Of a stretch of 33,192 nt of DNA, positions 25,986-27,086 are shown piece by piece. The first letter of the stretch is position 1, and each line of letters starts with the position of its first letter. A model generated the notes under the pieces. It had not been told where the DNA came from and did not search any database. It worked only from the letters and a program-made list of their open reading frames with translations. The position numbers and the translations under genes were made by a program. Origin of the DNA: Gammaproteobacteria bacterium (lineage in GTDB: Bacteria > Pseudomonadota > Gammaproteobacteria > UBA4575). The stretch lies in the NCBI GenBank assembly GCA_013001685.1, contig JABDMD010000185.1, positions 1-33,192 of the forward strand. The letters are read 5' to 3'.

Positions 25986-26001
25986 AGCACAATGCGTGCC
26001 A
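25986..26001 (-). promoter_or_regulatory. Sigma54 (-24/-12) promoter of glnA
   Basis: Minus strand reads TGGCACGCATTGTGCT: GG and GC at correct sigma54 spacing, 15/16 to TGGCACG-N4-TTGCW. Predicted TSS is near 25975. Confidence 0.75.
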
Positions 26002-26086: not shown

Positions 26087-26126
26087 AAGCACTATCTTGG
26101 TGCTAGCCAGCACCAAGATAGTGCTT
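26087..26126. promoter_or_regulatory. Twin NtrC-like enhancer as an 18-bp perfect inverted repeat
   Basis: AAGCACTATCTTGGTGCT-AGCC-AGCACCAAGATAGTGCTT. Each arm holds a GCAC(C/T)-N5-(G/A)GTGC site; site centres at 26096 and 26117 are 21 bp apart. Confidence 0.75.
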
Positions 26127-26465
26127 GATGTAATTTGAAAAATTATTTGGGAAGAAAACGAGTATACGTACATTTGCCTTATGAACTCGTGACGAGAAAA
26201 AAAACAATACAAGATTATTGAAGACCAGGGTCTATTGCCACTCATTCATTTAATAAAAATATCATTATAAAATGTAATGGTTTTATCCCTGCATATGGCC
26301 CACTGAAACGACTATTTATTTGCCGTGATTTGTCACCATAGGTCAAATAATGCAGACAATTTTCGTCCAATTGATAGCTCGATCACATCGCTAACTATTG
26401 CTAAATAACAAGTAAACAACAGCCCATCAGTAGGTTACTGATTCAGCTTAAAGTAAGCATGATGT

Positions 26466-26481
26466 TGGCATAGGCCTTGCT
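26466..26481 (+). promoter_or_regulatory. Sigma54 (-24/-12) promoter, divergent from glnA
   Basis: TGGCATAGGCCTTGCT: TGGCA and TTGCT at exact sigma54 spacing. Predicted TSS is near 26492, just before the GGA-hairpin region. Confidence 0.7.
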
Positions 26482-26547
26482 CTATAGATTACAACAAACT
26501 TTTTTATTGCTCAGGATGAGCATTTTAAGCATGACACGGAGGTCATT

Positions 26548-26676
26548 ATGGGCGTATCAACTGATGTATTCACAATTGTGTATATCGTATGGATCGCCGC
26601 AAGTATGGCAGCGTTAGCTTGGGCTTATCGACACACGGTTAAGAAAAAACTTTGTGGCGACAGCAACCGCGCTTAA
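26548..26676 (+). CDS. Small single-TM protein (42 aa), not in ORF track
   Basis: ATG preceded by GGAGG. Translation MGVSTDVFTIVYIVWIAASMAALAWAYRHTVKKKLCGDSNRA: one hydrophobic helix followed by a KKK cluster. Confidence 0.55.
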   Translation: MGVSTDVFTIVYIVWIAASMAALAWAYRHTVKKKLCGDSNRA

Positions 26677-26960
26677 ATACAGAAAGGATTCATTTTAAAG
26701 CAAGGATGCTTTATCAACACATACGGAAATGTGTGCAATGAAATGTAGAGTGGTGAAATGTGAGAAGCATTCACAGCAGGGAACACCTCGGACAAGGATT
26801 GTCGCCTCTACAATTTAAAAGGAAATGACATGTTGTAACTAAGGATAGTTACACCTTACAAGGATGCAACCTAGATAGCTCATCATCAGGAGAGTGTATC
26901 TAAACCGTCTTAGGGAAGAGGGCTGCGAGACAAGGACGTCGTTCTGCAGCACTATTATTA

Positions 26961-26988
26961 AAGGCAAGCACTTAGCTTGCCTTTTTTA
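26961..26988 (+). terminator. Intrinsic terminator of the CsrB-like RNA
   Basis: AAGGCAAGC (26961-26969), ACTTA loop, GCTTGCCTT (26975-26983), then a T tract. Confidence 0.92.
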
Positions 26989-27086
26989 TTGCCCGCAATT
27001 ACCCAGAAATATAGCTATTAGCAAGCACCAGTGCTGGTAGGCATAGCAGGGCATCGCTATACTCTCGTGCGTGCAACGCGTTAACT

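Follow-up and report, generated by a model that had tools for sequence, protein, structure and literature searches.

In gammaproteobacteria, the usual account of Csr/Rsm sponge RNAs places them under the control of GacS/GacA (BarA/UvrY). In enterics, csrB makes use of IHF as well (PMC5109040), and RpoN seems to act as a repressor of rsmZ in P. stutzeri (PMC8249394). Other RNAs that bind RsmA are derived from mRNAs. RsmW of P. aeruginosa comes from the 3'UTR of the PA4570 mRNA, titrates RsmA and has raised levels in a gacA mutant; it gives bands of 120 and 400 nt and contains seven GGA motifs, three of them on outer loops (PMC4950607). RsmU of Xanthomonas campestris lies in the 3'UTR of a comEA-like mRNA and has three to four GGA motifs (PMC7694677). 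A sigma-54-dependent sponge is found in CrcZ/CrcY of Pseudomonas, whose activator is CbrB; CrcZ titrates Hfq/Crc and can also bind RsmA/RsmN (PMC8871633).

Here we describe a locus in a window of 33,192 nt, the whole stretch of DNA analyzed. The predicted transcript between glnA and glyQ is ~498 nt, which exceeds the length of the CsrB/CsrC and RsmX/Y/Z sRNAs. It resembles CsrB/CsrC of enterics and RsmX/Y/Z of Pseudomonas in its many GGA hairpin loops, intergenic position and intrinsic terminator, and differs from them in its conserved ORF (those RNAs being non-coding), its sigma-54 promoter, the lack of an Rfam match and a host family with no UvrY/GacA, their activator, over cut-off. As with RsmW, the titrating RNA would form the 3' part of an mRNA for a small protein and would not depend on activation by GacA; the gene is a different one, and the abstract of the RsmW report does not mention a sigma-54 link (PMC4950607). 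RsmU is comparable as an mRNA-derived, RsmA-binding RNA restricted to one genus, but its host mRNA encodes ComEA, its GGA motifs are few, and the paper mentions neither sigma-54 nor RpoN (PMC7694677). With CrcZ/CrcY the locus would share sigma-54-dependent expression of a protein sponge, in CrcZ/CrcY under an NtrC-type enhancer-binding response regulator (PMC8871633). CrcZ differs in target protein, activator and location. To our knowledge, no ORF is known in CrcZ. In the open-access literature we found neither a sigma-54-driven CsrA sponge nor this combination of features. The excess of GGA loops, their first rank genome-wide, the synteny in five species and an explained gap at csrA make a CsrA sponge the best reading of the locus, and that the RNA is a CsrA-binding sponge transcript is, taken alone, highly probable. 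For the whole statement, a sigma-54-dependent, probably PilR-activated RNA of ~500 nt that would be both a microprotein mRNA and a CsrA sponge, we regard the chances as even.

The assembly that holds the window (G000) was compared with three genomes of the same genus (G001, G002 and G003) and one of a sister genus (G006); the named records are metagenome-assembled genomes of uncultured Gammaproteobacteria. DNA with 71-82% similarity lies between glnA and glyQ in each of the four relatives, and the sponge architecture there is shared by five species, which belong to two genera. Elsewhere in 55 relatives, there was no DNA similarity to the locus except two 30-nt terminator-like matches. The matches in G004 and G012, which cover the terminator only, are not homologues. 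A covariance model of the 3' domain (R1), searched with strict filters, matched G000 only among 369 genomes of the class, so the RNA seems to be lineage-specific. The 9-bp terminator with T tract given in the preliminary description of this DNA is borne out by the sequence pattern (Table 1), and together with the sigma-54 element it would provide the RNA with its own promoter and terminator, as expected of CsrA-titrating RNAs. A recognizable terminator was not seen at the G006 locus (L016 1470-1500), and the RNA of that species may therefore run on towards glyQ. After the terminator and before glyQ, all five species have TATACT with conserved flanks (27050-27070 in the window), which looks like glyQ's own promoter.

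Table 1. Features of the glnA-glyQ intergenic region, in window coordinates; the predicted transcript and the elements named by likeness are assignments from sequence.
Feature	Position	Strand	Sequence	Basis and variation
glnA-side sigma-54-like element	25987-26001	-	TGGCACGCATTGTGC	recurs, with NtrC-like sites, in four relatives
Activator box 1, PilR-box-like	26320-26336	+	TTGCCGTGATTTGTCAC	core TGCC..nATT.GTCACCA invariant in five species
Activator box 2, PilR-box-like	26353-26369	+	CAGACAATTTTCGTCCA	GACAA-N3-TTGTC dyad in relatives
IHF-like site between enhancer and promoter	26425-26437	+	CATCAGTAGGTTA	TCA-N-T-N2-GTTA invariant in five species
Sigma-54 -24/-12 promoter	26466-26481	+	TGGCATAGGCCTTGCT	sole strict match in the window on both strands; conserved in five species
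Predicted transcript (dual mRNA/CsrA-sponge RNA)	26492-26989	+		promoter, GGA hairpins, terminator, glnA-glyQ synteny
Hairpin 1	26508-26522	+	TGCTC-AGGAT-GAGCA	P(loop) = 0.98; lost in G006
Hairpin 2	26531-26546	+	ATGAC-ACGGAG-GTCAT	small-ORF Shine-Dalgarno GGA in the loop, P = 0.98; GGAGGTCA invariant in five species
Small ORF, 42 aa	26548-26676	+	MGVSTDVFTIVYIVWIAASMAALAWAYRHTVKKKLCGDSNRA (one hydrophobic, membrane-helix-like stretch)	conserved in all five species
Hairpin 3, short	26682-26691	+	GAA-AGGA-TTC	GAA.GGATTC invariant in five species
Hairpin 4	26696-26713	+	TAAAGC-AAGGAT-GCTTTA	P(loop) only 0.25
Hairpin 5	26717-26734	+	ACACAT-ACGGAA-ATGTGT	intact in all four species of the genus; missing in G006
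Hairpin 6	26791-26803	+	GACA-AGGAT-TGTC	GGA loop retained with shifted stem in G006
Hairpin 7	26834-26853	+	TGTAACT-AAGGAT-AGTTACA	most variable stem between species, GGA loop constant
Hairpin 8	26856-26869	+	TTGCATGGATGCAA (in G002)	weak in G000; loop count and species comparison
3' domain with hairpins 9 and 10	26871-26955	+	AGATAGCTC...GGAGAG...CTTAGGGAAGAGGGCTGCGAGACAAGGAYGTC...GCAGCA	best conserved part, 83% mean column identity
Intrinsic terminator stem-loop, then T tract	26960-26984	+		sequence pattern; kept in G001, G002 and G003

Positions 26492-26990 contain 15 GGA triplets on the sense strand (12 of them as ANGGA) and none on the antisense strand. Seven are in loops closed by 4 bp or more, compared with 1.91 ± 1.36 in dinucleotide shuffles, of which one in 500 was as high; for stems of at least 5 bp the count is five (0.62 ± 0.76 in shuffles, 0 of 500 as high), and no other trinucleotide is found in these loops as often as GGA. 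At least seven hairpins presenting GGA, as claimed in the preliminary description, are thus confirmed, and the check for conservation in relatives came out in the same direction: at the same glnA-glyQ site the four relatives have 11, 9, 8 and 7 GGA triplets in loops closed by at least 4 bp, against about two in shuffles. The closed same-genus genome G002 was scanned whole on both strands (8,000 bases are N), and its orthologous locus ranks first, with 12 GGA loops per 500 nt while the next best has seven. It also leads when stems must have 5 bp or more (eight loops versus five) and among intergenic stretches of 250 nt (eight versus five). Separately, intergenic DNA of G002 holds a dispersed repeat of GGA-loop hairpins (e.g. 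GTGCAGGATGCAC, GACTGCATGGATGCAG and GAGACAGGATGTC; sites at L124 near 13816 and on contig C1 near 2172035, 2133967 and 1269249), copies of which could be further CsrA-binding elements.

In Boltzmann sampling, the GGA triplets at 26514, 26538, 26686, 26725, 26843 and 26934 have a hairpin-loop probability of at least 0.75. Alternative pairings compete in single-sequence folding with the hairpins at 26704, 26796, 26862 and 26889, and it is such a competing fold that lowers the loop probability of hairpin 4. Most stems are invariant between species and hence give little information on pairing. Clear compensatory change is found mainly in hairpin 7, where TAACT/AGTTA and, in G006, GTGGC/GCCAC surround an unchanged GGA loop with several pairs differing; G003, which has TACTC-AGGAC-GAGTG at this point, was left out of the comparison. 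Over the poorly aligned whole 3' part, RNAalifold returned a positive covariation term (2.64), which amounts to no net covariation support, so we claim covariation for hairpin 7 alone. Diversity of stems around a kept loop had been taken as a sign of selection; it is seen between hairpins and, for hairpin 7, between species, but the other stems are mostly invariant from one species to another.

The preliminary description had made the sponge depend on csrA in the genome, and the gene is present in the genus. The Pfam CsrA family is detected in every same-genus relative, where by reading the gene lies downstream of alaS and lysC, but not in the G000 assembly (rated 99% complete). Its absence from G000 is due only to an assembly gap: contig C42 stops at the base aligning just before csrA (end of L042), and C44 resumes past it (start of L043). 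With the gene in relatives and an assembly gap in G000, the absence of csrA was rejected as an argument against a sponge. Among 19 genomes of the family, no protein exceeded the NCBIfam cut-off for UvrY/SirA/GacA (NF007018), the best scoring ~127 bits versus the 280 required; one of 14 control genomes passes it. In G000 and G002 the top candidates are NarL-like by score, and a GacA/UvrY activator was rejected for this reason. That the profile finds no GacA does not prove, though, that its role is filled by no other activator.

The position of the sigma-54 promoter reads TGGCAY-N5-TTGCTCTAT in the other four species. Its predicted start at 26491-26492, ~12 nt past the -12 element, coincides with the left boundary of the RNA in the preliminary description. 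The GG/GC elements at -24/-12 are accompanied by rpoN (an ORF with the RpoN box in G002) and by enhancer-binding proteins. Intergenic DNA of G002 has seven strict sigma-54 matches, the sponge promoter among them, and three of the seven lie 35-38 nt before flagellar-type genes (FlgB-, FliD- and FliL-like by reading). We consider it very likely that this promoter drives the sponge transcript. Between the activator boxes and the promoter, the conserved element listed in Table 1 resembles the IHF consensus and is a candidate IHF site.

The earlier statement that no listed ORF explains the region proved incomplete, with the 42-aa ORF occupying part of it. Its product has 69-80% identity in the four relatives, with dN/dS of 0.11-0.46, exceeds no family cut-off in Pfam or NCBIfam, and in a wide homologue search is confined to two genera of the family; we predict a membrane microprotein. 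A conserved ORF with a Shine-Dalgarno sequence inside the predicted transcript implies either an mRNA with a long 3'UTR of GGA hairpins or a dual-function RNA. The sponge segment lies in the putative 3'UTR, as GGA hairpins continue from the ORF to 26955, just before the terminator. Since the loop of hairpin 2 holds the GGA of the microprotein's Shine-Dalgarno sequence, microprotein synthesis would be under repression by CsrA as well.

Several other explanations of the RNA were weighed against a sponge. The GGA-hairpin repeats of G002 come second to the sponge locus in intergenic GGA-loop density, and they invite the thought that the locus itself is a dispersed repeat, or GGA-rich DNA that arose by chance and has no function. 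This is extremely improbable: the sponge is single copy, its sequence is unrelated to those repeats, and five species share its genomic place together with a conserved ORF, promoter and loops. Another reading is a GacA-dependent member of the CsrB/RsmZ family that has diverged too far for Rfam. A permissive Rfam search of the window did return, besides chance-level matches, a weak RsmZ similarity at 26834-26989 (18 bits, E=0.13), but 44 bits are required, unrelated control genomes also give sub-threshold matches at permissive E, and the sigma-54 promoter and the missing UvrY/GacA count against it as well, so we regard such a relationship as very improbable. RF00166 stayed below cut-off in nine genomes of the family, and the window has no Rfam match at the gathering threshold, which agrees with the expectation that the RNA falls outside existing covariance models. 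The label 'CsrB/RsmY/RsmZ-type' could accordingly not be kept as a family assignment, given also the internal ORF, whereas the underlying idea of a CsrA sponge gains from the GGA-loop rank, the conservation in five species, csrA in the genus and the terminator. More weight is due to the proposal that the RNA is simply the mRNA of the 42-aa protein, with GGA hairpins acting only in cis on translation or stability and too little RNA to titrate CsrA. The conserved ORF and the hairpin at its Shine-Dalgarno sequence speak for it. Cis control by CsrA, however, usually requires few sites close to the start codon, and here the majority of the GGA hairpins, with the best conserved part among them, come after the ORF, at distances of up to 260 nt; we judge a purely cis-acting role to be distinctly unlikely.

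For the activator of the sponge, the choice lies chiefly between PilR and NtrC. Box 2 starts exactly 33 bp after the start of box 1 in each of the five species. In intergenic DNA of G002 the dyad GACAA-N2to4-TTGTC occurs three times: in the sponge enhancer, in a CsrA hairpin within the sponge, and between pilR and pilA. TGACAA-N3-TTGTCA stands just past the pilR stop codon in the four same-genus genomes (G000 to G003), and G015, from another genus, has a variant of it; G006, whose pilR locus ends at a contig edge, is outside this comparison. In G001 the dyad is ~134 bp before a TGGCAC-type element. With a matrix built from the pilA dyads alone, the sponge boxes come first of the 228,987 intergenic pairs of G002 spaced by 33 bp, and at spacings of 18-59 their score is reached by no further intergenic pair; box 2 singly ranks 33rd of 276,952 positions. 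Because the pair was tested after being noticed, its ranking counts as support and not as proof. PilR orthologues (E ≤ 1e-120) are found in all five sponge-bearing genomes and in 2 of 14 others, G007 and G015, in which no sponge was found. G000 also encodes FleQ-like, FleR/FlrC-like and NtrX-like enhancer-binding proteins and one unnamed; in this genome the Fle-type and PilR proteins were named by reading, with no NCBIfam equivalog over its cut-off. Any of these might be considered as activator, but it is to the pilR-pilA interval that the dyad matched. The same sponge RNA could instead be activated from NtrC sites shared with the divergent sigma-54 promoter of glnA, and would then report nitrogen limitation. 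The divergent neighbor is indeed glnA-ntrB-ntrC, NtrC scores over its cut-off, and NtrC-like GCAC-N7-GTGC sites occur at 26089-26103 and 26110-26124, with at least one in each of the five species; such a double site could act on both promoters. These sites are, however, at the usual distance from the conserved glnA-side element (TGGCAC-N6-TGC) and ~345-380 bp upstream of the sponge's -24 element, and the sponge has its own, different conserved boxes nearer by. NtrC acting through these promoter-proximal boxes was rejected, as they do not fit NtrC, and the position of the NtrC-like sites assigns them to the glnA-side promoter. Control from the shared sites appears rather unlikely, and PilR is probably the activator, with NtrC next.

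In the mechanism that we propose, an enhancer-binding protein, with PilR favored and NtrC next, would act together with IHF to start RpoN-dependent transcription of the sponge RNA. Up to ten or so GGA loops would then bind CsrA dimers, free CsrA would fall, and mRNAs repressed by CsrA would be relieved. At hairpin 2, CsrA would keep the microprotein from being translated as long as the RNA is not in excess over CsrA. In P. aeruginosa, PilSR reacts to the level of pilin and may also signal contact with a surface (PMC6058289). We tentatively suggest, at somewhat less than even chances, that in this GacA-less lineage PilS-PilR senses the level of pilin or contact with a surface and has a direct effect on CsrA by way of an RpoN-dependent sponge that is itself a CsrA-gated microprotein mRNA. 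The locus suggests that a lineage without a recognizable GacA may keep CsrA titration by means of sigma-54 and a pilus-type response regulator, with the sponge fused to a microprotein gene in the same RNA. If true, this would be a re-wired Csr input and would illustrate how evolution can exchange what feeds into a global post-transcriptional regulator. The sponge RNA was missed by covariance-model annotation, yet it ranks first in a scan of GGA-loop density.

The second-best PilR-box-like dyad of G002, GTGACAATGTTGGTCAC (C1:489077-489093, L078), lies ~40 bp before a small-protein gene with a signal-peptide-like start.
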